Below, in pieces: positions 26,580 to 53,688 of a DNA stretch of 57,817 bases. A model generated the notes under the pieces. The model was not told the origin of the DNA. It saw only the letters and a program-made list of their open reading frames with translations, and did no database searches. The translations under genes were made by a program, and so were the position numbers. Source of the stretch: Candidatus Omnitrophota bacterium (GTDB taxonomy: Bacteria > Omnitrophota > Gorgyraeia > JABMRN01 > RBG-13-46-9); the NCBI GenBank assembly GCA_024542975.1, contig JAMXCZ010000003.1, forward strand, positions 1-57,817, written 5' to 3'. Position 1 is the first letter of the stretch; every line of letters starts with the position of its first letter.

Positions 26580-26604
26580 TTGACTCGAAAAGGGGGTGAA
26601 GAAA

Positions 26605-26775: not shown

Positions 26776-27671
26776 ATAACTCGGTTTTTCATAAGCCGGT
26801 AATGGCCAGAGAAGTAATCGAGTCTCTTTCTCTGAAAAATGGATACAAAATTTTGGATGCAACAATTGGCCTGGGAGGGCATGCGCGGCATATTCTGGAA
26901 AGAATACTTCCGGATGGTTTTCTGATAGGCGTAGATTGCGATGAGAATGCGCTCAAATTTGCAAAAGATCAATTGGCCGGATTCGGCAGTAAAACGCATA
27001 CGTTGTTGCACGGCAATTTCAGAAACATAGATGAGATTTTGTCGGGTCTCGCAATCGAGGCGATTGACGGAGCGCTCTTTGATTTAGGTATCTCAAGCTA
27101 TCAACTGAATGATGCAGGCCGCGGGTTTGGATTTGGAGGGGACGGGGCGCTTGATATGCGGATGGACCCTTCGCGCGGCCGCTCGGCATACGATATTGTC
27201 AATCGTTTGAAGAGGGATGAGCTCGAGAATATTATTCGTGACTTCGGCCAGGAGCGCTATTTCAGGAGGATTGCGGGATTTATCATAACGAGAAGGAAGG
27301 ATGGCCCGATTGAATCCACCGGAGAACTTGCGGCCCTTATTGGGAAGGCAGTCGGGAGGCGCTATCGATCCCAGAGGATACATCCGGCAACGCGGACCTT
27401 TCAGGCAATACGCATCGCTGTAAACGAGGAACTGGCAAATCTGGAAGAAGGCCTGTCCAGAGTGGTGGATTTTGTCAGGCCCCGCCGTAGAATTTGCGTC
27501 ATCTCTTTTCATTCTCTTGAAGACAGGATAGTCAAATTTAAGTTCAGGGAGCTTGCCAAAAGCGGCAAAGGCCGTGTGATTACAAAGAAACCGCTTACGC
27601 CTACGATTGAAGAAAAACGCGAAAATCCACGTTCACGCAGCGCAAAAATGCGCACCCTTGAGAAAATATGA
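26772..27671 (+). CDS. rsmH: 16S rRNA m4C1402 methyltransferase
   Basis: HKPVMAREVIESL, LDATIGLGGHA, FDLGISSYQL, CVISFHSLEDRIVK. Confidence 0.95.
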   Translation: MNNSVFHKPVMAREVIESLSLKNGYKILDATIGLGGHARHILERILPDGFLIGVDCDENALKFAKDQLAGFGSKTHTLLHGNFRNIDEILSGLAIEAIDGALFDLGISSYQLNDAGRGFGFGGDGALDMRMDPSRGRSAYDIVNRLKRDELENIIRDFGQERYFRRIAGFIITRRKDGPIESTGELAALIGKAVGRRYRSQRIHPATRTFQAIRIAVNEELANLEEGLSRVVDFVRPRRRICVISFHSLEDRIVKFKFRELAKSGKGRVITKKPLTPTIEEKRENPRSRSAKMRTLEKI

Positions 27672-28051
27672 ATAAAAGAAAATTTTTAAAGTCCATAGCA
27701 GGTATATCGTTATGTGCCATCCTGGCGTTGGGTTATGTGCATCAGGAGGTAGAAATCGTAAAAACTGGCTTTTTAATTAACAAACACCGCAGTGAGGTCT
27801 CCTTCCAGCTTGACCAATACCGCTCTTTGGTATATAATCTTTCCAGACTGGAATCGCCAAAGAGGGTAGAGGCTATTCTTTGCATGAATGACATTGCGCT
27901 TTGCATGCCGAAAGTGAAGAATAAACGGCGTTTCAGCCAGATAGCGCGCACTTATGATGAAGAAAAGCCCCGAATGAAAAAGAGCGAATCCCTTCTGGCG
28001 TACGTATTAGATCGATTTTCCACAAACGCAGAAGCTAAGGTTGCAGAGTGA
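27668..28051 (+). CDS. FtsL-like protein
   Basis: Single N-terminal TM, short, located between rsmH and ftsI. Confidence 0.55.
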   Translation: MNKRKFLKSIAGISLCAILALGYVHQEVEIVKTGFLINKHRSEVSFQLDQYRSLVYNLSRLESPKRVEAILCMNDIALCMPKVKNKRRFSQIARTYDEEKPRMKKSESLLAYVLDRFSTNAEAKVAE

Positions 28052-28104: not shown

Positions 28105-29796
28105 ATGCATATTAATTTTAACAAAACCCGCCAATTACTCATCACGAGCGTCGTTTTTGCTCTGTTTGCAACAGTCTTAACGCGCCTGTTTTATATCCAG
28201 ATAATACGCCATGAATTCTTCACGGGCTTGGCAAATAAACAGCATAAGTCTTTTGTCAAATTGCCGCCAAAAAGGGGTACGATATACGATAGCGCGGACA
28301 GGATAGTGGCAATTCATTTGGATACACCTTCCGTATATGCGGCGCCGAGGGAGATAAGTGATCCGGAAATGGTTTCCGGTATCCTGGCCGAAGAACTGGG
28401 GCTTGACGCGTTTTCGCTCCGGAAAAAACTCGCAAAAAACAGTAATTTCACGTGGATAAAAAGAAAAGCCGATCGCGCTCTCGGAGAAAAAATTAAAAAG
28501 CTCAACTTAAGGGGAGTGTATGTGGCCTCTGAAGGGAAAAGATTCTATCCGGGAGGAGAGCTATTCTCTCATGTGCTGGGGATTACGGGAATGGACCAGA
28601 CTGGGCTGGAGGGCCTGGAGTTCTATTACGACAGGCAGCTTACCGGGGAATATGGCTTCAGACGCTCTTACAGGGATGCCAAAAGAAGAGAGATCGTTTC
28701 TTCCCGGAACGATGTTTTGCCCGCGCGTAACGGAATAAACATCGTTCTCACCGCGGATGCTGTTATTCAGCACATAATAGAGAAGGAAATCGGCAATATC
28801 GCGGAACTCTACCGCCCGAAGGCAATTTCCTGCATTGCCATGGATCCCGGGACCGGTGAAATATTGGGCATGGCGAATTACCCCTCATTTAATCCCAACG
28901 CATTTTCCGGCATAAATCCCGGCTTTTTAAGGAACAGGGCCGTGACTGATTCATTTGAGCCGGGGAGCGTATTCAAGATGGTAACAGCGAGCGCCGCTCT
29001 GGAGGAAGGCGTGGTTGACTTTGAAAGCGAATTCTTTTGCGAAGAGGGAGCTATAAAAATCGGCAATCGGGTATTGCATGATTACAGGCCCCATGGTATC
29101 CTGAAATTCAGGGAGATAATAGAGAAATCAAGTAATATAGGCGTATACAAGGTCGCGGGGAGGCTCGGAAAAGAAAAGTTGTCCGCTTACATAAAGAAGT
29201 TTAACTTCGGGAGCAAAACCGGTATTGATTTACCGGGAGAAGCGCCCGGTATCCTGCGCGATGTTTCGGAATGGACTACTGCGGATATGGCTTCGGTGCC
29301 AATGGGCCATGGCATTACGGTCACGGTGCTTCAGCTTGTTTCGTGTGTTTCGGCAATTGCGAACGGCGGGGTTCTAATGAAGCCATACATTGCCAAAAAG
29401 CTGCTTAACGAAGAAGGAGCCCTAATACGGGAAAATAAGCCAACGCCAATAAGAAGAGTTATTTCGAAAGAAACAGCCGCCAAGGTCAAAGAACTGCTAG
29501 AGGGTGTTGTCGAGCGCGGCACGGGGAAACCGTCCAGGATCGATGACTTCAGGGTATGCGGCAAAACCGGAACTGCCCAGAAAGTCAACCCGAAAGGTGG
29601 CTATTACGATGACAGATATATCAGTTCTTTTGTAGGGTTTGCGCCTTACGACAGGCCGCGCGTTGCGTTGGCCGTGTGCGTGGATGAACCGCGCGGTAAA
29701 CATCTCGCAAGCCAGGTTTGCGCGCCGGCATTTAAGAACATGATGGAAGAGATTTTGTCTTACCTGGAAGCCGAAAGTGATAAAAATGAAGCTTAG
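28105..29796 (+). CDS. ftsI: Penicillin-binding protein / FtsI family transpeptidase
   Basis: RGTIYDSADR, EPGSVFKM (SxxK), KSSNIG (SxN), GKTGTAQK (KTG). Confidence 0.93.
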   Translation: MHINFNKTRQLLITSVVFALFATVLTRLFYIQIIRHEFFTGLANKQHKSFVKLPPKRGTIYDSADRIVAIHLDTPSVYAAPREISDPEMVSGILAEELGLDAFSLRKKLAKNSNFTWIKRKADRALGEKIKKLNLRGVYVASEGKRFYPGGELFSHVLGITGMDQTGLEGLEFYYDRQLTGEYGFRRSYRDAKRREIVSSRNDVLPARNGINIVLTADAVIQHIIEKEIGNIAELYRPKAISCIAMDPGTGEILGMANYPSFNPNAFSGINPGFLRNRAVTDSFEPGSVFKMVTASAALEEGVVDFESEFFCEEGAIKIGNRVLHDYRPHGILKFREIIEKSSNIGVYKVAGRLGKEKLSAYIKKFNFGSKTGIDLPGEAPGILRDVSEWTTADMASVPMGHGITVTVLQLVSCVSAIANGGVLMKPYIAKKLLNEEGALIRENKPTPIRRVISKETAAKVKELLEGVVERGTGKPSRIDDFRVCGKTGTAQKVNPKGGYYDDRYISSFVGFAPYDRPRVALAVCVDEPRGKHLASQVCAPAFKNMMEEILSYLEAESDKNEA

Positions 29797-35018: not shown

Positions 35019-35138
35019 CATATTATACCGCAATACGTTGCAACATGGCATTTTCCACATTATAGTGCTTGAAAACTGGAAAATGACCCATTCTAACGTA
35101 TTGACGGGTAAGGGGTTAGGGGAAAGGGGGACGTCCCC
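34996..35138. repeat. MITE/REP-like nested inverted repeat between murD and ftsW
   Basis: Arms GGGGACGTCC (34996-35005)/GGACGTCCCC (35129-35138); CAATACGTT (35031-35039)/AACGTATTG (35095-35103); CATTTTCCA (35049-35057)/TGGAAAATG (35077-35085). Confidence 0.8.
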
Positions 35139-35142
35139 TTAT

Positions 35143-36231
35143 ATGAGAATGCAAAATACACGAAGGTCTATCTTTATTATAACTATGATCTTAGTCATGC
35201 TCGGGGTTGTGCTTGTTTACAGCTCAAGCGCCATTTACGCGTATGAAAAATTCGGGAACAGCACATTTTTTTTTAAGAAACACATATCATTCCTCCTGTT
35301 GGGGTTTTTGCTCATGGTTTATATTATGTCTCTCGACATTGCCAAGATTGCCGGCGCGTCCCGGGCGCTATTCCTTATTTCGTTACTGTTTTTGGGGCTT
35401 GTTCTCCTGCCGGGCCTGGGAATTTCTGCCGGCGGGGCGCGGCGCTGGCTCAGGGCCGGTTTTTTTAGTTTCCAGCCGTCCGAATTTGCTAAATTTACGC
35501 TTATTACGTACCTGGCCGCTTTACTCGCAAAAAAGGGTTATAGGATAAAGGATCTTGCTTACGGGTACCTTCCGACGGTTTCGGCGATCGCCCTGGTTTC
35601 GGTTTTGATCTTGCTTCAACCGGACCTCGGTACGGCTGTGGCAGTTTTCTTTGTGGGTTTTGTGCTAATTTTTATCGCAGGGGGCAGGTTGAAACATCTC
35701 CTCACGACGGCGCTTCTCGGGGTGCCATTTTTGTATTATCTGATATTCAGCGTTCCTTACAGGCGTAAGCGAATGTTTATTTTTCTGAATCCCTGGCAGG
35801 ATCAGAAGGGGGCCGGATTCCAGATCATACAGTCGTTCCTTGCGCTCGGCTCCGGCGGCCTTCTCGGGGTGGGCCTGGGCCAGTCGAAGCAGAAGCTTTT
35901 CTATTTACCGGAAGCGCATACGGATTTCATATTTTCAATAATAGGGGAAGAACTGGGGTTTTTGGGGGCTGCTTCGGTTTTGGCGCTCTTCGGCGCATTT
36001 GTTTTCCTGGGTTTTCGCGCATTTTTTAATGAAAATCGCCCGTTTAATAAGTTGCTTATATTCGGCATAACAAGTATGATAGCGTTCGAAGCGTTTGTTA
36101 ACATAGGGATAAGCCTGGGCGTTTTTCCGACCAAGGGGTTGCCCCTGCCGTTTGTAAGCTATGGCGGAAGTTCGCTCGTGTTCCATATGGCGGCGGTGGG
36201 CCTTCTGTTAAATGCAATGAGGGAAGCATGA
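35143..36231 (+). CDS. ftsW: SEDS-family FtsW
   Basis: VYSSSAIYAYEKFG, HTDFIFSIIGEELGFLG, GLPLPFVSYGGSSLV. Confidence 0.93.
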   Translation: MRMQNTRRSIFIITMILVMLGVVLVYSSSAIYAYEKFGNSTFFFKKHISFLLLGFLLMVYIMSLDIAKIAGASRALFLISLLFLGLVLLPGLGISAGGARRWLRAGFFSFQPSEFAKFTLITYLAALLAKKGYRIKDLAYGYLPTVSAIALVSVLILLQPDLGTAVAVFFVGFVLIFIAGGRLKHLLTTALLGVPFLYYLIFSVPYRRKRMFIFLNPWQDQKGAGFQIIQSFLALGSGGLLGVGLGQSKQKLFYLPEAHTDFIFSIIGEELGFLGAASVLALFGAFVFLGFRAFFNENRPFNKLLIFGITSMIAFEAFVNIGISLGVFPTKGLPLPFVSYGGSSLVFHMAAVGLLLNAMREA

Positions 36232-39556: not shown

Positions 39557-40477
39557 ATGACTGATTACGGAAAAATCGCGGTATTTGCAGGCGGCCCTTC
39601 CAGCGAGCGCGAGATAAGCCTCCTCTCCGGGAAGGCGGTTTATGAAGCTCTTAAAAGGAAAAACCTGGACGCGCGCCTTGTCGAAGTCAAAGACGATTTT
39701 TACGAAAAAATAAAACAAATTAAGTGCGATATGGCGTTTCTTGCTTTGCATGGAAAGTTCGGGGAAGACGGGACAGCGCAGGAGATGCTGGAGGGGCTTG
39801 ACATTCCTTACACCGGCTCCGGAGTCCTGTCTTCGAGGCTGGCGATGGATAAGGTTGCTTCAAGAGAAGTGTTTTTGGAAAACGGCCTCAAGGCTCCGTC
39901 TTATAAAGTCGTAAAACGCGGCGCGAATGCCGGGGTCCTGGCAGAAGAATTCGGCTTGCCGTTTGTCGTAAAGCCGCAAAGCGGTGGCTCAAGCATAGGC
40001 CTTTCCGTAGTGAAGGACTTAAGTTTTGCGGAGGAAGCCCTGGAGAAGGCGTCCCGTTACGGCGAGAAGATCATTGTAGAGAGATATATCCACGGCAGGG
40101 AACTTACCGTAGGCATCCTTGAGGAGAGCGCCCTTCCCGTTATAGAAATAGTACCCAAAAACGATGTATATGATTTCGATGCCAAATACGCCGATCACGG
40201 GACAGAATATATTCTTCCGGCCTTGCTTGACGAAGATGCCCGGAGGGGCGTGGTAGATGCCGCGCTCAAGGCAAAAGAGATCCTCGGTTGCAGGGATTTT
40301 TCGCGGGTTGACATGAGGATGGACCGGGAAGGGAATGTCTACATTCTGGAGGTAAATACGATTCCGGGCCTGACTGAACGCAGCCTCTTGCCGAAAGCGG
40401 CCGGCGCGGCGGGCCTTGGCTTCGAAGATCTATGTATAAAAATAATCGATCTTGTTCGCAAACGGGAGGAAGGGTGA
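39557..40477 (+). CDS. ddl: D-alanine-D-alanine ligase
   Basis: GGPSSEREISLLSG; LHGKFGEDGTAQEMLE; VKPQSGGSSIG; LEVNTIPGLT. Confidence 0.95.
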   Translation: MTDYGKIAVFAGGPSSEREISLLSGKAVYEALKRKNLDARLVEVKDDFYEKIKQIKCDMAFLALHGKFGEDGTAQEMLEGLDIPYTGSGVLSSRLAMDKVASREVFLENGLKAPSYKVVKRGANAGVLAEEFGLPFVVKPQSGGSSIGLSVVKDLSFAEEALEKASRYGEKIIVERYIHGRELTVGILEESALPVIEIVPKNDVYDFDAKYADHGTEYILPALLDEDARRGVVDAALKAKEILGCRDFSRVDMRMDREGNVYILEVNTIPGLTERSLLPKAAGAAGLGFEDLCIKIIDLVRKREEG

Positions 40478-40479
40478 GT

Positions 40480-41253
40480 ATGCGTAAGAAAAATCCGGGC
40501 AAAAAAATTAAAAAAGAAAAAAATAAAACTGCGCCGATAAAATTGCCGGTAAAAAAATTCCTGCACTTTGCGCTTATTTTTACCCTGATCACAGTTTCGT
40601 ATTTATCTTTACGAAATTCCAAATATTTCACGTTGACGGACATAAAGGTAATTGATAGGGATGCTATCTCGGGCCTCAGGGCGGAAGACCTCCTGCATCT
40701 CTACAAGGGGAGAAATATTTTTGATATTGATATTGATGCCATCGCATTCCGGACAAAAAAAGATTATCCGCTTACAAAAGAGGTGATTGTACGAAAGGTG
40801 CTTCCCTCGAGCCTCGTTGTAGACATTACCTCGCGCGTTCCCATAGGCAAAATTAAAGCAAACGGATATTTTCCGATTGACCGGACGGGCATGGTGTTGC
40901 CGCCCGGAGGAGATACCGGTGCCCTGCCGGTTATATCGGGGTTTTCCATGTGGCTTAAACCCCGCGTAGGGGAGAGGTTGGATAACAGGCAGCTCAAAAG
41001 TGCATTCCTTTTGATAGATGCTTTGAAAGAAAACACGCTCGCGGGCCCTTTCAGCGTAACGGCTGTTGATGCGGCAAATTACAAAAACCTTTCGTTCTAC
41101 CTGAAAAACGGGATCGAGGTAAAAATAGGCGAGAACGATTTCCCAAAACGGCTTAAGATGCTGAAAACCACGCTTAACAACCGAAAACTGGATAAAAACG
41201 ACATACGGTATATCGATTTAAGGTTCCGGGATGTTGTGATCGGGCCGAAATAA
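40480..41253 (+). CDS. ftsQ: FtsQ/DivIB-like (POTRA)
   Basis: N-terminal basic region and TM, FTLTDIKVID POTRA start; position upstream of ftsA. Confidence 0.8.
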   Translation: MRKKNPGKKIKKEKNKTAPIKLPVKKFLHFALIFTLITVSYLSLRNSKYFTLTDIKVIDRDAISGLRAEDLLHLYKGRNIFDIDIDAIAFRTKKDYPLTKEVIVRKVLPSSLVVDITSRVPIGKIKANGYFPIDRTGMVLPPGGDTGALPVISGFSMWLKPRVGERLDNRQLKSAFLLIDALKENTLAGPFSVTAVDAANYKNLSFYLKNGIEVKIGENDFPKRLKMLKTTLNNRKLDKNDIRYIDLRFRDVVIGPK

Positions 41254-41268
41254 GCCTATCGGACTACG

Positions 41269-42330
41269 ATGCAAAAACCAATTACCGTAATAGACCTGGG
41301 CTCAAATAGGATCGTTGCTGCGACTGCCGGTATAGGGAAAAAGGGCGGGGTAACGCTTCTTGCGATGGAAAACCTTCATTCGCGCGGGATAAACGAAGGC
41401 GAAATAACCGACATCAGTAAAGCCGTAGAGGATATTTCGCTGATTACCGGTAAGCTTAAGGAAAAGTGCGGAAGAAAACCGAAGAACGTTTTTGTGACGA
41501 CAAGAAGCGCCGACATAGAGGTCAGGCCTTCCCGGGGGATGATCCCGCTCTCTAAAACGTCCCGTGAAATTACAAGAAATGATGTAAGGCGTTCTTCGGA
41601 GCTCGCTTCCATGGTGAGGCTCTCTTTAGACCGGGCCATTGTGCAAAAAATCGTGCGGAACTTTCGTATAGACGAAAACGCCGCGGAGGTCAAAAATCCC
41701 GTAGGGCTTTACGGGATGCGCCTCGAGGTTGAATCATTTATTGTTACGGCCAACCGGTCCAAAATTCAAAACATTACAAAATGTATTGACCACGCAGGAT
41801 TTCTCTTGGGAGGCGTATATCTCTCAAGCATAGCTTCGGCCGAGAGCGTTTTGGACTCAAAGGAAAAAGAGAAAGGGGTACTACTTCTGGACATAGGAGA
41901 GGCCCTTACCGAAGGCCTTATTTTTAAAAATGATATGCTTAAAAATTTCTGCGCGATCCGAAAAGGCGCGAGGGCTGTCTATGACGGAAACCGGCATGTG
42001 GACAAACCCGGGCTTACCGCTTTGCTGCTGGACACACTTGCCGCGCTTCCAAATGGGGCATCCGCGTTCTCATCCGTAGTTCTAACGGGAGGCGGAGCTC
42101 TTCTTGACGGCGTGATCGAAGAAGCAGAAAAAGTCTTCAAACTCCCCGTAAAAATCGGTCTCGCAAAAAACCAAAACCAAAGCCTGAACTCGCAGGACGC
42201 CATAATCCATGCCCCAACGATCGGCCTGATAACCCACATCGCCAATGACTACAAAGCCTCCCAAATCCACACTTCGCCTTTCCTCCGCACCCTGCACAAC
42301 CTCCAACACATCTACGAAACCTACTTCTAA
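41269..42330 (+). CDS. ftsA: FtsA-like actin-fold protein, apparently shortened
   Basis: TVIDLGSNRIVAA phosphate-1, 1C-like domain, VVLTGGGALLDGV; phosphate-2 region LLLDIGEALTEG atypical. Confidence 0.8.
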   Translation: MQKPITVIDLGSNRIVAATAGIGKKGGVTLLAMENLHSRGINEGEITDISKAVEDISLITGKLKEKCGRKPKNVFVTTRSADIEVRPSRGMIPLSKTSREITRNDVRRSSELASMVRLSLDRAIVQKIVRNFRIDENAAEVKNPVGLYGMRLEVESFIVTANRSKIQNITKCIDHAGFLLGGVYLSSIASAESVLDSKEKEKGVLLLDIGEALTEGLIFKNDMLKNFCAIRKGARAVYDGNRHVDKPGLTALLLDTLAALPNGASAFSSVVLTGGGALLDGVIEEAEKVFKLPVKIGLAKNQNQSLNSQDAIIHAPTIGLITHIANDYKASQIHTSPFLRTLHNLQHIYETYF

Positions 42331-42332
42331 CC

Positions 42333-42356
42333 AAAAAGGGGTTAGACCCCTTTTTT
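42333..42356 (+). terminator. Rho-independent terminator / REP-like
   Basis: AAAAAGGGG-ttaga-CCCCTTTTTT. Confidence 0.75.
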
Positions 42357-42371
42357 ACGATGGGATTTTGT

Positions 42372-42400
42372 TTGACAGTGAAAATCTTATATGCTACGCT
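42372..42400 (+). promoter_or_regulatory. Promoter for the yggS operon
   Basis: TTGACA (42372-42377) N17 TACGCT (42395-42400). Confidence 0.55.
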
Positions 42401-42427
42401 ATAGCGGAAAAATAGTATTATATATAT

Positions 42428-43090
42428 ATGGTAGGCGAGAATCTTACAAAAGTTCGGGAGCGTATACAGAAGGCGGCCTTGAGGGTGGGGCGGGATCCGC
42501 ACTCAGTAAAGCTTGTAGCCGTTACCAAGAAGGCCGAAATCGACGAGGTACGCGGGGCTATCGAGGCCGGTGTAACCGATATCGGTGAAAATCGGGTAAA
42601 GGACGCGCTTTTGAAGCGCGAGCTTCTGGATTCTCACATTCTCAACTGGCACATGATAGGGCACCTTCAATCGAAGAAGGCGAAGGACGCCGTCAGGATA
42701 TTTTCGGTTATTCATTCGGTTGATACGATAAAATTGGCCCGCGCTATCGATAAAGCGGCAGGATCGAGCGGTAAAGTCCAGGATATTTTCATAGAAGTTA
42801 ACGTTTCGGGTGAGAAAAGCAAGTTCGGCATTGCGCCCGGCGCCCTCGAAGGTTTTCTAAAGGAGGCCGGGCGTTTAAAGAACATCAATATCCCGGGCGT
42901 CATGACAATGGCGCCTTTTGCGGACGATGCTGAGAAGGCGCGGCCTTATTTCCGGGAATTAAAAAAGTTGGCCGATGCGCATAATTTAAAAGAAGTTTCA
43001 ATGGGGATGACACAGGACTTTGAAGTTGCCGTGGAAGAAGGCGCTACGATGGTTCGTATAGGTAGCGCGATATTCAGAGGTGAATTATGA
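42428..43090 (+). CDS. yggS: PLP homeostasis protein YggS/PLPBP
   Basis: LVAVTKKAEIDEVRGAIEAGVTDIGENRVKDAL; WHMIGHLQSKK; SMGMTQDFEVAVEEGATMVRIGSAIF. Confidence 0.95.
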   Translation: MVGENLTKVRERIQKAALRVGRDPHSVKLVAVTKKAEIDEVRGAIEAGVTDIGENRVKDALLKRELLDSHILNWHMIGHLQSKKAKDAVRIFSVIHSVDTIKLARAIDKAAGSSGKVQDIFIEVNVSGEKSKFGIAPGALEGFLKEAGRLKNINIPGVMTMAPFADDAEKARPYFRELKKLADAHNLKEVSMGMTQDFEVAVEEGATMVRIGSAIFRGEL

Positions 43091-43884
43091 AACTCGGCAT
43101 TATCGGTTGCGGAAATATGGGGAGCGCCCTGGCGCGGGGTATTTTATCGACGCGGCTTTTACAATTTAATTCCATCTACATAAGTGATAAGGACTCCGGC
43201 AGGACGCGCGCGCTTTCCAAAAAATTGGGTATGCGTGTCAGCACAAATAAGGAAACCGTAAAGAAAAGTAATTTCATCATCATTGCCGTAAAACCCCAGG
43301 ACGCAAAAAGGCTTCTCGCTTCGATTTCGGAGGATTTGGACCAGTCGAAGCACCTCGTCTCCATTATGGCGGGAGTCAGCATTAAAAAAATCGAGTCATT
43401 TATCAATAAAAAAGTCGCTATTACGCGCGCAATGCCGAATCTAACGGCACTCGCGGGAAAAAGCATAACCTGCTTGAGTCACAACAGGATGGTAAAAAAT
43501 AAGGCGTTCACGCAAAAGATCTTTTCTTCAGTAGGCAGTGTTATCGAGATCGAAGAAAAACATATGGATGCGGTAACCGCGGTAAGCGGAAGCGGCCCGG
43601 CATATTTCCTTTACCTTGCGGAGTGCTTAGCGGAGGCTGCGGTAAAATTGGGCATCAAAAGAGAAAAAGCGGTAGAGCTTGCAGCCGCTACGCTTTTCGG
43701 GAGCGGCGCATTGTTGGAAGCCCTGGATGTTTCCCCCGAGGTTTTACGCAAGCGTATAACATCCAAAAAAGGGACGACGGAAGCGGCGCTCTCCGTCCTA
43801 AAATCAAAGAATTTTAAAGGTGCGGTAATCGAAGCGGTGAAGGCCGCCTCGGCAAGGTCGAAAGAGCTTTCGAAAGGAGCCTGA
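43087..43884 (+). CDS. proC: Pyrroline-5-carboxylate reductase
   Basis: GIIGCGNMGSALARGIL; TRAMPNLTAL; VSGSGPAYFL. Confidence 0.95.
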   Translation: MKLGIIGCGNMGSALARGILSTRLLQFNSIYISDKDSGRTRALSKKLGMRVSTNKETVKKSNFIIIAVKPQDAKRLLASISEDLDQSKHLVSIMAGVSIKKIESFINKKVAITRAMPNLTALAGKSITCLSHNRMVKNKAFTQKIFSSVGSVIEIEEKHMDAVTAVSGSGPAYFLYLAECLAEAAVKLGIKREKAVELAAATLFGSGALLEALDVSPEVLRKRITSKKGTTEAALSVLKSKNFKGAVIEAVKAASARSKELSKGA

Positions 43885-43885
43885 A

Positions 43886-44185
43886 ATGTTTATACTGGGA
43901 CAGTTGCTCGCAAGCCTGGCGTATCTCTTCAACATGATCTTCAACATCCTGTATTTTCTCCTTGTGATCAGAATAATACTTTCGTGGTTTGCCATAAACC
44001 CCTACAATGAGATCGTCCAGATCCTATACCGGATAACCGACCCAATCCTGGCGCCCTTTCGCAGGCTGCCGCTCCGGATGGGCATGATAGATTTTACACC
44101 GATAGTGGCCTTTATGGCGCTCTGGTTTGTGCGTAGTTTCGTCGTAGGCGTTCTAAGCCACTACGCAATGACGCTAATGAGATGA
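43886..44185 (+). CDS. yggT: YggT family membrane protein
   Basis: LVIRIILSWF...DPILAPFRRLPLRMGMIDFTPIVAF. Confidence 0.9.
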   Translation: MFILGQLLASLAYLFNMIFNILYFLLVIRIILSWFAINPYNEIVQILYRITDPILAPFRRLPLRMGMIDFTPIVAFMALWFVRSFVVGVLSHYAMTLMR

Positions 44186-44201
44186 ATGATGGGGAGGTAA
44201 G

Positions 44202-45062
44202 ATGGCAAGGATAGGCATTATAGGCGGTAGCGGATTATACGATATCGAAGGTATCAAGATAAATGAAACGCGTAAAATCAATACGCCGTTTGGGGATCCC
44301 TCGGACGAATATGTAATCGGAACGCTAAGCGGCAAAGAAATAGTGTTTTTGCCCAGGCATGGCAGGGGCCACCGCATAAGCCCTTCCCGGATAAACTATC
44401 GAGCCAACATATTCGGCATGAAAAAACTCGGGGTAGAGCACATTATTTCAGTTTCCGCGTGCGGTTCGCTTAAAGAAAATATTAAACCGCTGGATTTTGT
44501 TCTTCCACTGCAATTTGTCGACAGGACAAATCAGGCGAGGAAGTATACATTTTTTGACGACGGCATTACCGCCCACATAAGTTTTGCGCACCCCGTATGC
44601 GAGGGCCTTGTGAATTTAGTGGCAGAGGAGACCAAAAAAGTAAAACAGGGCGTGCACATTGGCGGGACATATTTAAACATGGAAGGGCCGCAGTTTTCGA
44701 CGCTTGCGGAATCTAATCTTTACAGGGCCTGGGGAATGGACGTGATCGGCATGACTAATATGGCAGAGGCGCGGCTGGCGCGGGAGGCGGAGATCTGTTA
44801 TGCTACGCTGGCAGCCGTTACCGATTATGACTGCTGGTGCGAAAGCGAAGAAGATGTAACCATTGATGCCATAATAGGCAATCTCAGAAAAAACGTAAAA
44901 AACGCAAAAAAAATACTAAAGGGCTCGATCACAAAAATCAGCGACAAACGAACCTGCCCGTGCAAGGATGCGCTAAAATACGCCATCGTAACCGACCCAA
45001 AAGCCATATCGCAGGAGACGAGGGATAGGCTGGGGATCCTGATAGGGAGGCACATAAAGTGA
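44202..45062 (+). CDS. mtnP: S-methyl-5'-thioadenosine phosphorylase
   Basis: IGIIGGSGLYDIEGI; FLPRHGRGHRISPSRINYRANI; MEGPQFSTLAES. Confidence 0.95.
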   Translation: MARIGIIGGSGLYDIEGIKINETRKINTPFGDPSDEYVIGTLSGKEIVFLPRHGRGHRISPSRINYRANIFGMKKLGVEHIISVSACGSLKENIKPLDFVLPLQFVDRTNQARKYTFFDDGITAHISFAHPVCEGLVNLVAEETKKVKQGVHIGGTYLNMEGPQFSTLAESNLYRAWGMDVIGMTNMAEARLAREAEICYATLAAVTDYDCWCESEEDVTIDAIIGNLRKNVKNAKKILKGSITKISDKRTCPCKDALKYAIVTDPKAISQETRDRLGILIGRHIK

Positions 45063-45961
45063 ACCGTATTTTAGTGGTGGGGTCGGTAGCGCTCGATACG
45101 GTAACGACTCCGTTCGGCAAGTGCTCTGACGTTTTAGGCGGTTCGGCGACGTATTTTTCCGTAAGCGCAAGCCACTTTAGCCCTGTCGAGGTCGTTGCCG
45201 TGGTAGGGAGCGACTTCCCTTCCAGGCACATAAAATTTCTGAAATCCAAAAAAATTAATTTAAATGGCCTGAAAACCATAAAGGGCAAAACCTTCCGGTG
45301 GGAAGGCGAATACAGCTGGGATTTCGGGAACCCGAAGACGATAGCTACACACCTCAACGTATTTTCTGATTTTGACCCGGAGGTGCCGCGCGAGTATCGC
45401 GCGAGTAAATATGTATTTTTAGCCAATATCGACCCGCGGTTGCAAAAGAAGGTTTTAAATCAGATGGTAAATCCCAGGATAGTGGCCTGTGACACAATGA
45501 ATTACTGGATAGAAAATAAACGCAATGACCTGATAAGGCTTTTAAAAGAGGTCGATATATTTTTCGTAAATGAATCGGAGGCAAAAGAACTAACCGGCGA
45601 GGTGGGCCTCGTGGCCGCTGCGCGCGCCATGCTCAGTTTTGGCCCAAAAAAAGTTATCATAAAAAAAGGTGAACACGGGAGCCTTTTGTTTTCGAGTGAC
45701 TCGATCTTTAGTACCCCGGCGTTTCTTCTGGAAACAATTTTCGATCCTACCGGCGCCGGCGATACATTCGCGGGTGGGGTCATGGGGTATCTCGCATCCT
45801 CGGGCAGTTTAAGCGAGAAGGCTTTGAGGAAGGCGATTGTTTACGGGAGTGTTATGGCAACGTTTGCGGTTCGCGATTTTAGCCTGAGGCGCCTGGGTGC
45901 TGTAAAAAAGCCGGACATAATGAAGAAATTTAGCGAGTTCAAACAGCTTACGCAATTTTAA
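45059..45961 (+). CDS. PfkB-family sugar/nucleoside kinase
   Basis: VVGSVALDTVTTPFG; FDPTGAGDTFAGGVMGYL. Confidence 0.93.
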   Translation: MNRILVVGSVALDTVTTPFGKCSDVLGGSATYFSVSASHFSPVEVVAVVGSDFPSRHIKFLKSKKINLNGLKTIKGKTFRWEGEYSWDFGNPKTIATHLNVFSDFDPEVPREYRASKYVFLANIDPRLQKKVLNQMVNPRIVACDTMNYWIENKRNDLIRLLKEVDIFFVNESEAKELTGEVGLVAAARAMLSFGPKKVIIKKGEHGSLLFSSDSIFSTPAFLLETIFDPTGAGDTFAGGVMGYLASSGSLSEKALRKAIVYGSVMATFAVRDFSLRRLGAVKKPDIMKKFSEFKQLTQF

Positions 45962-45962
45962 T

Positions 45963-48776
45963 ATGAATTACAAAGACACCCTGAATTTACCGAAAACAAC
46001 GTTTAAGATGAAGGCGAACTTGGTAGCAAAAGAGCCTGCCATGTTCAAGGCCTGGAGCGAAAAAGGTGTCTACCATGCCCTGCGAAAGGAAAGAAAAGGG
46101 AAACCCAAATTCATTCTACATGACGGCCCGCCCTATGCAAACGGCCACATTCATATGGGCCATGTCCTGAATAAGATCCTGAAAGATATCGTTGTAAAAT
46201 TTCACACAATGAAAGGGTGTGACGCGCCATTCGTGCCCGGCTGGGATTGCCACGGGCTTCCGGTGGAACATCAACTGTTCAAGGAACTTAAAATTTCAAA
46301 ATACGATATTGACCGGGTTGAATTCAGAAAGAAGGCGGCGTCCTACGCAATGAAATTTGTCGAAATACAGAAAAAGGAATTTGAGCGGCTCGGTATTTTT
46401 GCCGACTGGGAAAGGCCTTACTTGACTCTGGACCCCAAATACGAAGCGGCGGTTGTCCGTTCCTTCGGGTGCCTCGTAAAAGAGGGATACGTTTATAAAG
46501 GCTTAAAACCCGTAAACTGGTGCACAAGGTGCGAAACTGCGCTTGCGGAAGCAGAGGTAGAATACGAGGAACATTCATCGCCGTCTATTTATGTAAAATT
46601 CAAGGTGAAGGATTTTAAAAATTTTAAACGAAATACGACTCACGGGGCGCGAGATATGCATTTCATAATCTGGACCACTACGCCGTGGACTTTGCTCGGG
46701 AACGTTGCCGTAGCCATTCACCCCGAAAAAGATTATGCAATACTTGAAGCGGACGGGGAAGCGTGGGTGATGCTCGAATCGCTCGCTCGGCCCACAATGC
46801 AAAAACTAAAAAAACCGGTTAAAATCCTGGATAGGGTGAAGGGTAAGGAGCTTCTGGGAATAGAGTGCAAGCACCCGTTTATTGATCGCGCCTCAAAAGT
46901 TGTGCTTGCCGATTATGTTTCATCCCAAGAAGGGACGGGCTGCGTGCATACGGCGCCGGGGCATGGCCAGGAGGATTACCTCACGGGCAAAAAATACAAT
47001 TTACCGATAATAATGCCCGTAGACTCAAAAGGTATTTTTGACAAAACATGCGGCGAGTTTAGCGGATTACATGTCCGCAAAGCCAACGATAGAATAAGTG
47101 AGCGCCTGCAAAAGGATAAAGCGCTTTTATTTTCAGAAAAAATTACGCATTCCTATCCCCATTGCTGGAGGTGCAGGGAGCCTATAATTTTCCGGGCCAC
47201 GGAACAATATTTTGTCAGCATTGATCACAAGAATTTGAGAAAGAAAATGCTGGATGCCGTCAAAAACAAAGTCAAATGGTACCCCGAAAGAGGGGAAGCG
47301 CGGATGTCTTCAATGATAGAAAACCGGCCTGATTGGTGTATATCGCGGCAACGATACTGGGGCGTGCCGATAGTCGCTTTTAAGTGCAAGAAATGCGAAG
47401 AGGCGTTGCTGGACGAAAATGTAATCGAGCACGTTGCGGCTATTATCGAGAGGGAAGGATCTCAGGCCTGGTTTGTAAAGGATGAGAAGGCGCTCGTTCC
47501 CAAAGGGGTCGTTTGTGGGAAGTGCCGCTCGGATGCATTTATCAAGGAGACGGACATTATCGATGTATGGTTTGAGTCGGGCGTAAGTTACCGATCGGTT
47601 CTTAAGGAAAAACTTGGGTCCGAGTTCCCTTGCGAGCTTTACCTGGAAGGATCGGATCAGCACAGGGGGTGGTTTCAGTCGTCCCTTATCGCGTCATCCG
47701 CTATGGAAGGCCGGCCCCCGTATAAAAATGTCCTTACGCATGGTTTTGTCGTTGACGGCGCGGGAAAAAAAATGTCAAAAAGCCTCGGCAACGTTATTTC
47801 TCCGGAAGGCGTCATGAAGAAATACGGAGCGGACATTTTGAGGCTCTGGGTTGCATCCAGTAATTATGCGGATGATGTGAGGCTTTCACCTGAGATTCTC
47901 GACCGGCTGTCGGATGCCTACCGAAAGATCCGCAACACCTTCAGGTATCTTTTGGGAAACACGCATGACTTTGATCCGAAAAAGAACGCCATAGAGGCCG
48001 AACATTTGCTCGAAATCGACCGCTGGATGCTATCAAGGCTTGCCGGTGTCATTTACGAGGCGGATAAAAATTATTCATCCTATTCTTTTTACCGTGTATT
48101 CCGTTCTGTTTATAATTTCTGCGTATATGAAATTTCAAGCCTCTACCTTGATATTTTGAAGGATAGGCTGTATACTTTTGACGGAAACTCAATAGAGCGC
48201 CGCTCCTGCCAAACGGTTATGTATGAGATCCTGACGGCGCTTATTAGGATACTCGCTCCCATTCTCAGTTTTACGGCGGAAGAGGCGCAAGAGTCACTCT
48301 GCCCGGGCGGTAAGTCCGTGCACCGGAGCCTCTGGTGTTGGGATAGCGGCGTTTTAGCCAAATGGGAAAATAAGGCTCTGGATGAGAAGTGGCAGCGCCT
48401 TCTCGGTATACGCGAAGTGGTTTTGAAGGCGATTGAAGAAAAAAGAATTTTGGGCGAAATCAAAAGCTCACTTGAGGTGCGCGTCACTTTGTATAGCGAG
48501 GAGGTTGAGTTTAGGAGATTTCTGGAAGAAAACGCCCAAAATCTACCGTCATTATTTATTACTTCGCAGGTTGAAATTTCGGATAAGAGGCGCGCGGGCG
48601 CAAAGTGCGAAGGGGGGATGCCTCTCTACGTATCCGTAGAAAAAGCAAGGGGCGAAAAATGCAAAAGATGTTGGAATTATAGCGACACAGTCGGCGCCGG
48701 TAAGCAGTTTAACGACCTATGCGCGCGCTGCGCCGAGGCCGTAGAGAGAGGAGCAAAAAATGCCCAAAAAAAGTAA
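45963..48776 (+). CDS. ileS: Isoleucyl-tRNA synthetase
   Basis: HDGPPYANGHIHMGHVLNKILKD; KMSKSLGNV; C-terminal zinc motif CKRCWNYSD...CARC. Confidence 0.97.
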   Translation: MNYKDTLNLPKTTFKMKANLVAKEPAMFKAWSEKGVYHALRKERKGKPKFILHDGPPYANGHIHMGHVLNKILKDIVVKFHTMKGCDAPFVPGWDCHGLPVEHQLFKELKISKYDIDRVEFRKKAASYAMKFVEIQKKEFERLGIFADWERPYLTLDPKYEAAVVRSFGCLVKEGYVYKGLKPVNWCTRCETALAEAEVEYEEHSSPSIYVKFKVKDFKNFKRNTTHGARDMHFIIWTTTPWTLLGNVAVAIHPEKDYAILEADGEAWVMLESLARPTMQKLKKPVKILDRVKGKELLGIECKHPFIDRASKVVLADYVSSQEGTGCVHTAPGHGQEDYLTGKKYNLPIIMPVDSKGIFDKTCGEFSGLHVRKANDRISERLQKDKALLFSEKITHSYPHCWRCREPIIFRATEQYFVSIDHKNLRKKMLDAVKNKVKWYPERGEARMSSMIENRPDWCISRQRYWGVPIVAFKCKKCEEALLDENVIEHVAAIIEREGSQAWFVKDEKALVPKGVVCGKCRSDAFIKETDIIDVWFESGVSYRSVLKEKLGSEFPCELYLEGSDQHRGWFQSSLIASSAMEGRPPYKNVLTHGFVVDGAGKKMSKSLGNVISPEGVMKKYGADILRLWVASSNYADDVRLSPEILDRLSDAYRKIRNTFRYLLGNTHDFDPKKNAIEAEHLLEIDRWMLSRLAGVIYEADKNYSSYSFYRVFRSVYNFCVYEISSLYLDILKDRLYTFDGNSIERRSCQTVMYEILTALIRILAPILSFTAEEAQESLCPGGKSVHRSLWCWDSGVLAKWENKALDEKWQRLLGIREVVLKAIEEKRILGEIKSSLEVRVTLYSEEVEFRRFLEENAQNLPSLFITSQVEISDKRRAGAKCEGGMPLYVSVEKARGEKCKRCWNYSDTVGAGKQFNDLCARCAEAVERGAKNAQKK

Positions 48777-49158
48777 GTATAGCAAGAAAGATATCAAGGT
48801 GTTTAAAAACCTTTTGGTAAAATCAAAGATAACTTTATTACACGGCATAAACCATTTAAAAAACGAGACCCTGAAAAAATCCCAACGGGAGGCTTCGGGA
48901 GACCTCTCCGGCTATGCGTATCACATGGCCGATATGGCAAGCGACGTTTATGAAAAGGACCTGCTTCTGAAGCTTGCATCCGGGGAAATAGAATTTCTGT
49001 TTCAGGTCGACGAGGCGCTAAAGAGGATGGAAGAGGGTGAATACGGATTTTGCCAGGAATGCGAAAAAAAGATCTCTAAGACGCGCCTTAAAGCTATTCC
49101 TTATACTACGCATTGCCGCAATTGCCAGGAAAAAGAAGAAAAAAGAAATAAAAAATAG
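48760..49158 (+). CDS. TraR/DksA-family zinc-finger protein
   Basis: EGEYGFCQECEKKISKTRLKAIPYTTHCRNCQ. Confidence 0.9.
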   Translation: MPKKSKYSKKDIKVFKNLLVKSKITLLHGINHLKNETLKKSQREASGDLSGYAYHMADMASDVYEKDLLLKLASGEIEFLFQVDEALKRMEEGEYGFCQECEKKISKTRLKAIPYTTHCRNCQEKEEKRNKK

Positions 49159-49604
49159 TGAAGGCCTTTGTTTGGGCGCTAGTTACTTTTACCGTTTTAT
49201 CCGACCAGGCCGCGAAATTTCTTGCCTCGCAGAGCCTCACTCCGGGCGCACCACGCGCGGTCGTAGAAGGTTTTTTTTATCTCACCCTTGTGCATAATAC
49301 CGGGGCTGCTTTCGGTGTTTTTCCGAACCAGGCCCTCTTTTTTCTTATTGTTTCGGGCCTTACGGTAATCATGATCGTCATATTCCTGAGAAAAAAATAC
49401 GATATCATTCTACCGAGGGATCTCGGGTTTGCCCTGATACTGGGGGGTGCCGTCGGAAACCTGATCGACAGGGTAAGGCTCGGGTATGTCGTAGATTTTT
49501 TCGACTTCCGAATATGGCCGGTTTTCAACGTTGCAGACTCGGCGATAACGGTAGGCGCGTTCCTCATAATCATAAGCGTGTTCCGTAAGAGGAGAGAAGC
49601 ATAA
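49158..49604 (+). CDS. lspA: Lipoprotein signal peptidase
   Basis: HNTGAAFGVF; GGAVGNLIDRVRLGYVVDFFDF; FNVADSAI. Confidence 0.95.
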   Translation: MKAFVWALVTFTVLSDQAAKFLASQSLTPGAPRAVVEGFFYLTLVHNTGAAFGVFPNQALFFLIVSGLTVIMIVIFLRKKYDIILPRDLGFALILGGAVGNLIDRVRLGYVVDFFDFRIWPVFNVADSAITVGAFLIIISVFRKRREA

Positions 49605-49605
49605 T

Positions 49606-50346
49606 ATGCATCCTGTATTATTTCAAATAGGGCCTCTCGTGATACGAAGCTACGGTGTTTTTGTTGCAACGGCGTTTCTTACGGGATTTTGGCTTCTCTA
49701 TCTGGAGGCAAAAAGGAAAAATTTCTATCCCGATAAGATCCGGGATATGGAGCTTTATATTCTCATATCCGGCATAGTAGGCGCGCGGGCGTTGCATGTC
49801 CTGGTAAATCTCGATTATTACGCTCTCCATGCTTCTGAGATCACAAAGCTCTGGCACGGTGGGTTGGCGATTTACGGCGGGCTTTTATTCGGGATAATCG
49901 CCGGTTGGGTGTTCATAGTGAGGAATGGTATGCCGCTTTTTGCTACGGGAGGCCTGGTTATTCCCTACATTGCCCTTGGACAGTCGATCGGAAGGATCGG
50001 ATGCTTTTTTAATGCGTGCTGTTTCGGAAAAGTGGCGGTAATCCCGGCATTGGGCGTGGTATTCCCGGGCGACTCCGTCGCAAGATACCCGACGCAACTT
50101 TATGCTTCTCTTTTGCTTCTCGCAATATTTGTATTTCTGAAGATCGCCGGGCAAAAAAAACTACGAGGCGGTTTTTTGTTCGCCTCATACCTCTTACTAT
50201 ATGCTGTTCAGCGGTTTGCAATCGATTTTCTACGCGACGATACGCCTCGGTACCTATTCGGCTTTACGGTTTCGCAATTCTTAAGCATTGGTGTTTTTGC
50301 CTTTGCGGGCGCTTTTCTGATCGGACAAAGAAAATGGAAGAACTGA
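49606..50346 (+). CDS. lgt: Prolipoprotein diacylglyceryl transferase
   Basis: IWHGG-like LWHGGLAIYGGLL; GQSIGRIGCFFNACCFG; YPTQLYAS. Confidence 0.95.
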   Translation: MHPVLFQIGPLVIRSYGVFVATAFLTGFWLLYLEAKRKNFYPDKIRDMELYILISGIVGARALHVLVNLDYYALHASEITKLWHGGLAIYGGLLFGIIAGWVFIVRNGMPLFATGGLVIPYIALGQSIGRIGCFFNACCFGKVAVIPALGVVFPGDSVARYPTQLYASLLLLAIFVFLKIAGQKKLRGGFLFASYLLLYAVQRFAIDFLRDDTPRYLFGFTVSQFLSIGVFAFAGAFLIGQRKWKN

Positions 50347-51245
50347 ATTTTAAAGTTGAGAAGGAGAGAGCCGGGGGGAGGCTTGATAAGTTTCTTGTCG
50401 GCGCGCTTCGCGGGCGGTTTTCGCGCTCGTTTATCAAAAAATTAGTAGACGACGCGAATGTAGAGATCGAAGGGAAGGTTGTGTGTGCGCATTACAAGGT
50501 TTGCCCGGGGGATAGCGTTAATTTGAAAATTCCGGATCCAAAGCCCCTTGAGCTTACGCCTGAAAACATTCCGCTTGACGTCGCGTATGAGGACGGAGAC
50601 CTTTTAGTCATAAATAAACAGCCAGGCCTTACAGTTCATCCCGCAGGGCCGCAACTTACAGGCACGCTTGTAAACGCCCTTCTTTACCATTGCAAGGATC
50701 TTTCAGGCATAGGCGGTGTTCTGCGGCCGGGTATTGTCCACCGCCTGGACAAAGATACTTCAGGCTTTTTGGTTGTGGCAAAAAATGACAAAACACACTT
50801 AAACCTGTCGGGACAATTCAAAAACCGCACGGCAAAGAGAAAATACATAGCACTCGTAAAAGGAATCGTGCAGCTTGACAGGGGGCGAATAGAACTGCCT
50901 ATTGCGAGGCGCAAAAAAGATATAAATAAAATGGGGATATCTTTTGCGGATACCAAAAAGAAAAATGCTATTACAAATTACCTGGTCCTTAAGCGTTTCA
51001 AGGATTTTACGATGCTTGAAGTTGCGCTCGAAACGGGGAGGACCCATCAAATCAGAGTCCATCTTTCGCATATGGGGCATGCGATTCTGGGGGACAGGAT
51101 GTATGGTTCGCAAAGGGGGATCGCCCGCCAGGCTCTTCACGCAAAGACGCTCGGTTTTTTTCACCCCGCAACAAAAAAATTCATGGAATTTGATAGCGCG
51201 ATCCCACGCGATATGCAGGACTTGATAGACAGGGGAAAGGTGTGA
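50334..51245 (+). CDS. rluD: RluD-family pseudouridine synthase
   Basis: HRLDKDTSGFLVVAKND; TGRTHQIRVHLSHMGHAILGD; start set at ATG 50334. Confidence 0.93.
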   Translation: MEELNFKVEKERAGGRLDKFLVGALRGRFSRSFIKKLVDDANVEIEGKVVCAHYKVCPGDSVNLKIPDPKPLELTPENIPLDVAYEDGDLLVINKQPGLTVHPAGPQLTGTLVNALLYHCKDLSGIGGVLRPGIVHRLDKDTSGFLVVAKNDKTHLNLSGQFKNRTAKRKYIALVKGIVQLDRGRIELPIARRKKDINKMGISFADTKKKNAITNYLVLKRFKDFTMLEVALETGRTHQIRVHLSHMGHAILGDRMYGSQRGIARQALHAKTLGFFHPATKKFMEFDSAIPRDMQDLIDRGKV

Positions 51246-51258
51246 TACACTAAAAACT

Positions 51259-52539
51259 ATGAATAAAACAATAAAACCCATAAATTACTTGCGTGGTGAA
51301 ATAAGCCTCCCGGGCGACAAATCTATTTCGCACAGGGCCGTCCTTATCGGAGGAATTTCAAGCGGTAAAACCAGAGCCCGGAATTTTTTAGAGGCCATAG
51401 ACTCCATGCATACCGTCTCCGCTTTTCGCGAAATGGGAGTTGACGTAAAAGTTAGCAAAAAAGAGGTTATTGTATTCGGCAGCGGCCTCCGGGGCCTCGC
51501 GAAACCCGCTCGTAAATTATATCTCGGCAATTCCGGGACCACCATGCGGATTCTTCCCGGACTGCTCGCCGGACAAAATTTCGAAGCGACCCTTACGGGA
51601 GACCCGTCACTTTCTAAGCGTCCGATGAAAAGAATTACAGAGCCGCTTCGTGAAATGGGCGTAGACATTTCCGCCGGAGGTGGCGACACACCGCCACTCG
51701 TCATTCGGGGAGGCCGCGTAAACGCAATAAAATATTCTACAAAGGTAGCCAGTGCCCAGGTCAAGTCCTGCATTCTTCTTGCGGGCCTTTATGCCGATGG
51801 CGTAACTTGTGTCACAGAACCCTTTACTTCGCGGGACCATACCGAGCGAATGCTGGAATTTTTCGGCGCAAAAATTTCGAAAAGTAACGGCACAGTCTCC
51901 GTCGTGGGCAAGGCCGAACTTCGGGGAAGCGAATTTTTTGTGCCGGGGGATATTTCAAGCGCTGCATTTTTTATTGCAGGGGCTGCGCTTCTCGAGGGCT
52001 CGGACCTCACTGTACGCGAAGTAGGGCTAAATCCGACGCGGATGGGATTTATTGACGTACTTTTAAGGATGGGCGCGAATATTAAGGTAACGACAAAAAT
52101 TGACGCACTTGAACCGTACGGCGATATAAAAGTAAAGTTTGCATCCTTAAAATCCGTTGTTATCGAAAAGTCCGAAGTGCCGCTTCTCATCGATGAGGTT
52201 CCGATCCTTTCTGTCCTTGCCGCGCAGGCTCGCGGCCAAACTATCATAAAGGGCATATCGGAACTTAGGGTCAAAGAGACGGACCGGATTTTTTCAATAA
52301 CCGAAAACCTGAAGCGGATGGGCGTAGAAATCAGAGCGGAAAATGAAAACCTTGTTATTTCGGGAAGCAAAAAAAGATTTGAGAAAGCGGTTTTGGACAG
52401 CTTCAAAGATCACAGGACAGCGATGGCGATGGCGATCGCAGCGCTTTTTTCAAAAGGTGAGTGCATTGTGCGCGATACAGAATGCATAAGCACATCTTTT
52501 CCGGAATTTTTCACGATGCTGGAAACTTTGCAGACGTAA
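51259..52539 (+). CDS. aroA: 3-phosphoshikimate 1-carboxyvinyltransferase
   Basis: LPGDKSISHRAVLIG; LGNSGTTMRILPGLLAG; LRVKETDRI. Confidence 0.96.
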   Translation: MNKTIKPINYLRGEISLPGDKSISHRAVLIGGISSGKTRARNFLEAIDSMHTVSAFREMGVDVKVSKKEVIVFGSGLRGLAKPARKLYLGNSGTTMRILPGLLAGQNFEATLTGDPSLSKRPMKRITEPLREMGVDISAGGGDTPPLVIRGGRVNAIKYSTKVASAQVKSCILLAGLYADGVTCVTEPFTSRDHTERMLEFFGAKISKSNGTVSVVGKAELRGSEFFVPGDISSAAFFIAGAALLEGSDLTVREVGLNPTRMGFIDVLLRMGANIKVTTKIDALEPYGDIKVKFASLKSVVIEKSEVPLLIDEVPILSVLAAQARGQTIIKGISELRVKETDRIFSITENLKRMGVEIRAENENLVISGSKKRFEKAVLDSFKDHRTAMAMAIAALFSKGECIVRDTECISTSFPEFFTMLETLQT

Positions 52540-52562
52540 AAGTTAAGAAAAAAAAATATAAT

Positions 52563-52591
52563 TTGACAAACGATATATGCTCTGATATTAT
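52563..52591 (+). promoter_or_regulatory. mreB promoter
   Basis: TTGACA (52563-52568) N17 TATTAT (52586-52591). Confidence 0.75.
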
Positions 52592-52614
52592 TAGATAGTA
52601 ATCTACGGAGGAAT

Positions 52615-53688
52615 ATGACTATTTCTAATCTGCGCGAACTGTTTTCAAAGGGCCTCAACAATGTGTTGGGATTTTTTTCCAATGACATGGGTATAGATCT
52701 CGGCACCGCAAGCACCCTCGTTTATATCAAGAACCAGGGAATCGTGCTCTGCGAACCTTCCGTTGTCGCTATTCAGGCCGGCACGTCAAATGTCCTGGCT
52801 GTGGGGGACGAAGCCAAAAGAATGCTTGGCAGAACCCCGGGCAACATAATCGCTATCCGCCCGATGCGGAACGGTGTAATAGCCGATTTCGAAATTACAG
52901 AGGCGATGTTGCGCTACTTTATAAAGAAGGTGCACAATTCCCGCCGGCTTGTCCGGCCGAGAATGGTAATCGCAATTCCATCCGGGATAACCGAAGTTGA
53001 AAAACGAGCCGTAAAGGATTCCGCTCTTCACGCCGGCGCGCGGGAGGTGTACATGGTCGAAGAGCCCGTAGCGGCTGCGATCGGAGTGGGATTGCCGATC
53101 CAGGAGCCTTCGGGGAGCATGATCATAGACATCGGAGGCGGGACTACGGAGATGGCGGTCATATCTTTGGCGGGTATAGTCTTTTCCAAATCTATACGTA
53201 CCGCCGGCGATGAAATGGATGAGGCCATCATCAACTACCTGAAAAAGACTTATAATCTTATGATAGGGGAACGCACCGCCGAGGAGATAAAGGTGAAGAT
53301 CGGTTCTGCTTATCCCCTCGATGAGGAGCTTAGCATGGACGTGAGAGGGCGGGACCTGGTAGCGGGCTTGCCCAAAATGATAACTGTCTCGAGCGAAGAA
53401 GTCAGAGAATCGCTTGCAGAGCCGGTTGCTCAGATCGTAGAGGCGATAAGAATAACCCTTGAAAGGACACCGCCGGAGCTTTCGGCGGACCTTATGGAAA
53501 AAGGTTTGATTCTCGCGGGCGGCGGGTCGCTACTCCGGGGATTGGACAAACTTATTTCCGAGGAGACAGGCCTGCCGGTCCATATTGCGGAAGACCCGCT
53601 TACGGCCGTTGCGCTAGGTACGGGCAAAGTATTGAGTGAACTCAAATATCTCAAGAGGCTGGCCGTAAATACTAGAGTAGACAGATAA
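52615..53688 (+). CDS. mreB: Rod-shape protein MreB
   Basis: [44 protein letters not shown]. Confidence 0.97.

Follow-up and report, generated by a model that had tools for sequence, protein, structure and literature searches.

In the FtsA proteins of model bacteria the longitudinal filament contact is made between subdomains IIA and IIB (2B), with S252 as its probe residue, while subdomain IC binds FtsN and forms the lateral contacts (PMC7613929). An FtsA from which 2B is deleted no longer binds FtsZ, and the recruitment of FtsQ and FtsN is the work of IC, as PMC4281207 states with reference to earlier work. The FtsZ-independent work of FtsA, the recruitment and activation of the septal wall synthase, has hitherto been hard to separate from the anchoring of FtsZ. 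In Chlamydia, which divides without FtsZ, a division role is described for MreB in PMC7029139 and for FtsK in PMC11975371. For the Omnitrophota the literature conflicts. The absence of FtsZ from Omnitrophica was noted once, in a figure legend of Pende et al. (2021), and Rivas-Marin et al. 2016 (PMC5147048) reported FtsZ in 'Omnitrophica bacterium OLB16', leaving the other two genomes open. High conservation of the dcw genes in Ca. Omnitrophota is stated in a 2025 paper (PMC12283558), and the main text of a large Omnitrophota survey (PMC10066038) is silent on FtsZ and FtsA. OLB16 is now placed in Candidatus Hinthialibacterota (NCBI taxonomy), which removes the 2016 counter-example.

The dcw cluster of the window and its last gene

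The window, by which we mean the whole stretch of 57,817 nucleotides analysed here, belongs to Candidatus Omnitrophota and carries a dcw cluster in the order mraZ, rsmH, small ORF, ftsI-type PBP, murE, murF, mraY, murD, ftsW, murG, murC, murB, ddl, ftsQ, ftsA, with murC and murF assigned by position. Its features, and those downstream, are as follows.

26139 to 27671, forward strand: mraZ and rsmH (mraW), the start of the dcw cluster (TIGR00242 and TIGR00006, above cut-off)
28105 to 29796, forward strand: ftsI-type transpeptidase (class B PBP) between rsmH and murE, assigned by dcw position
35038 to 36231, forward strand: ftsW (TIGR02614, 395 bits; cut-off 337.5)
40432 to 41253, forward strand: ftsQ (PF03799, 45.8 bits; POTRA_1, 27.7 bits; both above cut-off)
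41269 to 42330, forward strand: ftsA, 353 aa, the last dcw gene; the ftsQ-ftsA order is kept in relatives
42331 to 42427, no strand: gap of 97 bp between ftsA and yggS, the expected place of ftsZ, gene-free, with a terminator-like hairpin
52615 to 53688, forward strand: mreB (TIGR00904, 528.6 bits), followed by mreC, mreD, mrdA (PBP2) and rodA

The open frame of the ftsI-type gene matches class B PBP models, all below cut-off, and the annotated start of ftsQ, with its overlap with the 3' end of ddl, is uncertain. Between rsmH and the ftsI-type gene an ORF of 127 aa (27668-28051) has no family match and, by position only, is probably FtsL. Downstream of ftsA, yggS starts at 42428, 42427 being the last base ahead of it, and is followed by proC, yggT and more genes up to rluD and aroA, after which come mreB and its neighbours, where TIGR03423 and TIGR02210 find matches and MreC and MreD were also identified. 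A distance of about 11-14 kb between the ftsA end of the dcw cluster and mreB is seen in the window (41269-53688) and in G002, G003, G010, G013, G023, G033, G034, G042, G044 and G047, suggesting that some members of the class keep their division genes linked to those for elongation; this proximity is not present in G007.

The product of the last dcw gene scores 186.3 bits with the curated FtsA equivalog TIGR01174 (cut-off 175.85) and 55.8 bits with SHS2_FTSA (PF02491; cut-off 25.4), while the Pfam FtsA model PF14450 gives 29.3 bits, below its cut-off of 31.8, and PilM_2 gives 14.1 bits, below a cut-off of 27. The gene lies directly after ftsQ, and its parts, read from the translation, are these.

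41287 to 41313, forward strand: phosphate-1 motif VIDLGSNRI, residues 7-15, common to short and long FtsAs
41512 to 41748, forward strand: subdomain IC (SHS2), residues 82-160, matched by PF02491
41881 to 41916, forward strand: phosphate-2 region LLLDIGEALTEG, residues 205-216
41974 to 42066, forward strand: scar of subdomain IIB, residues 236-266, 31 residues against the usual 85 or so, from alignments
42076 to 42111, forward strand: adenosine motif VVLTGGGALLDG, residues 270-281, conserved
42280 to 42327, forward strand: C-terminal helix FLRTLHNLQHIYETYF with final YF, a putative membrane-targeting sequence

Judged by profile, position and alignment, the window protein is an FtsA orthologue that has lost 2B, and not a canonical FtsZ anchor. 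The initial annotation had described most of this correctly: the phosphate-1 (VIDLGSN) and LTGGG motifs are there, the stretch between IRKGAR and FSSVVLTGGG, put at about 31 residues, is exactly 31, and ftsZ is absent between ftsA and yggS and, as the genome-wide search that it called for found, from the rest of the genome also. Of the terminator and promoter that it placed in the gap, the first is borne out by a hairpin and T run at about 42326-42356, but a search of the 97 bp for a sigma-70 consensus promoter found none. Nor does its view of phosphate-2 as degenerate carry much weight: the window sequence is DIGEALTEG, and since FtsA of S. aureus (3wqt, 3wt0) reads DIGEDVTQ at this place, the argument is weak, Asp-Ile-Gly being retained and the change in the following glycines resembling that of S. 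aureus. With the nucleotide motifs largely kept and the 2B side of the cleft missing, ATP binding is putative. The terminal YF is found in 63 of 67 Omnitrophota FtsAs, two of the exceptions being cut short by the end of a contig, and the C-terminal helices of these proteins are amphipathic on average compared with shuffled sequences, consistent with a putative membrane-targeting role.

FtsZ and FtsA across the Omnitrophota

PF00091 has no match in the window genome, where TIGR00065 gives only a 14-bit fragment (E 0.019). In the 59 relatives PF00091, SepF and Tubulin_2 were each found in none; across the phylum PF00091 matched in one of 286 genomes (G217) and TIGR00065 in none above cut-off. 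Another 33 genomes gave TIGR00065 matches at E values of up to 1, short fragments of 9-16 bits that were taken as noise. The match in G217 (L001, 1012-2295, reverse strand) was set aside as TubZ-like on account of its C-terminal domain; this lysine-rich protein of the tubulin superfamily, whose gene adjoins a phosphoglycerate mutase gene, is the only tubulin-like one above cut-off among the 286 Omnitrophota genomes.

The whole phylum seems to have lost FtsZ. The window genome is a MAG of 110 contigs (91.9% complete), most of the other sampled genomes are MAGs too, with masking in places, from which it could be argued that ftsZ dropped out of the assembly or bin and that the deletion in ftsA is an artefact. 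The likelihood of this is negligible: FtsZ is missing from 286 genomes, single-contig ones included, so that the phylum-wide tallies refute it, and 31 of the 67 FtsA sequences, which come from separate assemblies, have the short form. The positive controls, ribosomal protein S9 and rpoB, were recovered from 54 of 59 and 71 of 73 of these genomes, and together with the single-contig genomes G007 and G033 they mean that incompleteness cannot explain the absence of FtsZ; S9 in 54/59 against FtsZ in 0/59 is a pattern beyond chance. That a divergent FtsZ was missed by the profiles is very unlikely. Verrucomicrobial FtsZ is among the most divergent (PMC12283558), showing that FtsZ can drift in the PVC group, but the same search caught the remote TubZ-type protein, was positive in 13 of 14 control genomes, and left nothing FtsZ-like after ftsA in the relatives that were read, which largely refutes this explanation. 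Where the loci of relatives are long enough, the order murC-(murB)-ddl-ftsQ-ftsA is kept and no ftsZ follows ftsA.

FtsA itself is widely retained. Its specific SHS2 domain is present in 255 of 286 genomes (195/217 among the most complete), so the Omnitrophota do not share the absence of FtsA that marks division of the Chlamydia and Planctomycetes type. MreB is found in 274 of the 286 and FtsK in 57 of 59 relatives. SHS2 is undetectable in about 10% of genomes, above all in family f48, and FtsA is thus not indispensable everywhere. Members of f48 (e.g. G193, G199, G217, G219, G224) and f6 (G014, G048) have a weak or undetectable SHS2 and possess MreB, possibly reflecting further loss or divergence of FtsA. 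In G029 (4 contigs, 95% complete) FtsZ, the FtsA SHS2 domain and MreB are all undetectable and FtsK is present. The suggestion in the initial annotation of an FtsZ-less lineage akin to some PVC bacteria holds for the absence of FtsZ and for the PVC link, the relatives being Candidatus Omnitrophota, but its lineage-specific scope gives way: the comparison with Omnitrophota genomes extends the absence of FtsZ to all 286, with FtsA kept in about 90%, a larger pattern than first thought. The conflicting literature on FtsZ in this phylum is thereby corrected.

Two further observations concern rpoB. An open frame of 25,093 aa beside rpoB in G043 turned out to be masked N. In G012, G014, G019, G029, G034, G036, G040, G043, G047, G053, G114 and G217 the rpoB match is split (profile positions of about 4-219 and 297-1237), and most of these genomes have an open frame of about 1133-1158 aa, which suggests a deletion of some 80 residues specific to one clade.

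Loss of subdomain 2B and selection on the short FtsA

Aligned to the solved FtsAs, the window protein has no counterpart to E. coli residues 246-295 or so, about 50 residues that make up most of 2B and include the positions of S252 and R286, and the helix after the missing block is recognisable. The finding that would have refuted the initial annotation, a normal ftsZ elsewhere in the genome together with an intact FtsA, was not made: the search gave no ftsZ, and 2B is missing by alignment. AlphaFold2 run on a four-sequence input gave a mean pLDDT of 37.7, an unusable model, and the loss of 2B accordingly stands on sequence alignment. The 67 Omnitrophota FtsAs show a bimodal distribution of 2B length: 31 of them have 17-37 residues in this segment, the other 36 have 60-99. 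On the rpoB tree the short or long state needs about five changes, at least three of which are required by branches with good support, and one group of short FtsAs (f55) falls in another class; on a tree of FtsA with the 2B columns removed the trait again needs five changes. A single clade of all short FtsAs is not rejected at 5% on the FtsA gene tree (p-AU 0.06), so the case for multiple losses draws mainly on the rpoB tree. As 2B belongs to the solved FtsAs of other phyla, the direction is taken to be loss and not gain, and by these phylogenies 2B was lost on several separate branches of the Omnitrophota. In the open-licence literature this repeated loss appears to be undescribed.

Where 2B is present its sequence may also have drifted. 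Three residues that the comparators E. coli, V. maritimus and S. aureus all share in the final helix of 2B, E298, R300 and E303, occur in only 17%, 14% and 31% of the 2B-bearing Omnitrophota FtsAs, against 97% for A254 and 75% for K258. R300 lies within a region which we take to be implicated in FtsZ binding, and the low retention of these positions, defined by three comparators, is suggestive of decay of the FtsZ site.

The short FtsAs keep IC, IIA, the nucleotide core and the C-terminal helix ending in YF. Their dN/dS by the Nei-Gojobori method is 0.16 for G001/G007, 0.11 for G038/G076 and 0.29-0.38 in the f55 family (G065 pairs), a signature of purifying selection, which shows that the short form is no pseudogene; the early description of the window gene as degenerate is not upheld, given this range of 0.11-0.38. 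These values also weigh on the proposal that FtsA has had no essential role since FtsZ was lost and is a relic in the course of decay. Such decay would fit the repeated loss of 2B and the weak or absent FtsA of f48, f6, G027 and G029, but a dN/dS well below 1, the conserved ftsQ-ftsA linkage, the near-invariant C-terminus and the occurrence of FtsA across many GTDB families all speak against it, and we think it quite unlikely.

A proposed model for FtsA without FtsZ and comparison with known systems

We propose a model, which we consider probable, in which FtsZ was lost, FtsA persists as an adaptor and activator alongside another scaffold, and 2B was lost under relaxed constraint. In this model the loss of FtsZ would date to the base of the sampled Omnitrophota or earlier, with FtsA, FtsQ, FtsW, FtsI and FtsK retained together with the MreB elongation machinery. 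FtsA would then act as a membrane-bound adaptor and activator, with its C-terminal helix on the membrane and its IA-IC cleft in contact with bitopic divisome proteins through their cytoplasmic tails, and may help to recruit FtsQ-FtsWI and to activate FtsWI for the synthesis of septal wall. Positioning and scaffolding would fall to something else than FtsZ, and the simplest choice, given the chlamydial case, would be MreB and/or FtsK. Once there was no FtsZ tail left to bind, the constraint on 2B would be relaxed and several losses could follow, leaving the family of the window with one minimal FtsA that lacks 2B.

The presence of IC, IA, IIA and the membrane helix in a protein without IIB is what makes a membrane-bound adaptor, placed by another scaffold, the best reading of this FtsA, and we infer the adaptor role, the scaffold and the relaxed constraint as cause. 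The first candidates for the scaffold are MreB and FtsK, as they serve so in FtsZ-less Chlamydia. MreB is retained in most rod-type bacteria anyway, and its presence is therefore no proof of a division role. As many genomes have 2B yet no FtsZ, 2B may also have an FtsZ-independent job, for instance in polymerisation.

FtsA could instead have taken over from FtsZ, forming an actin-like ring or patch of FtsA only, in which the short form polymerises by other contacts such as the lateral one of IC. The presence of FtsA in about 90% of genomes that lack FtsZ, SepF and Tubulin_2, the near-invariant C-terminal YF and the retention of IC, which is the lateral double-filament contact of model FtsA (PMC7613929), would all agree with this. 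The canonical longitudinal contact is IIA-IIB, however, of which IIB is the very part lost by the short FtsAs, and some genomes wholly lack a detectable FtsA; we judge a takeover unlikely. We are similarly doubtful of its fuller form, in which an FtsA-centred divisome is the primary division scaffold of the Omnitrophota, an actin-like anchor replacing the tubulin ring, and the FtsAs without 2B are a new class that assembles differently.

The window protein can be compared with several known systems. It is an orthologue, by profile and dcw position, of the FtsAs of E. coli, V. maritimus, S. aureus and T. maritima (7q6d, 7q6f, 3wqt, 1e4f), with the same IA-IC-IIA order and a conserved C-terminal helix, and keeps phosphate-1, the phosphate-2 Asp and the adenosine motif; it differs from them in the lack of an FtsZ partner in its genome and of about 50 residues of 2B, the S252 and R286 positions among them. 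PilM, which shares the FtsA fold, binds the cytoplasmic tail of the bitopic PilN in its IA-IC cleft with no need of FtsZ (PMC7613929) and is a possible functional analogue, although the window protein scores as FtsA and sits in a dcw cluster, not a pilus operon. The FtsZ-less Chlamydiota and Planctomycetota belong to the same PVC group, lack FtsZ and have MreB and FtsK, but there FtsA is absent too, with few exceptions (PMC8178401; PMC12283558), whereas the Omnitrophota mostly keep FtsA and an otherwise complete dcw cluster. This would add to the PVC group a third kind of FtsZ-less division, one with FtsA, and makes the Omnitrophota FtsAs natural separation-of-function proteins that let one ask what FtsA does alone.
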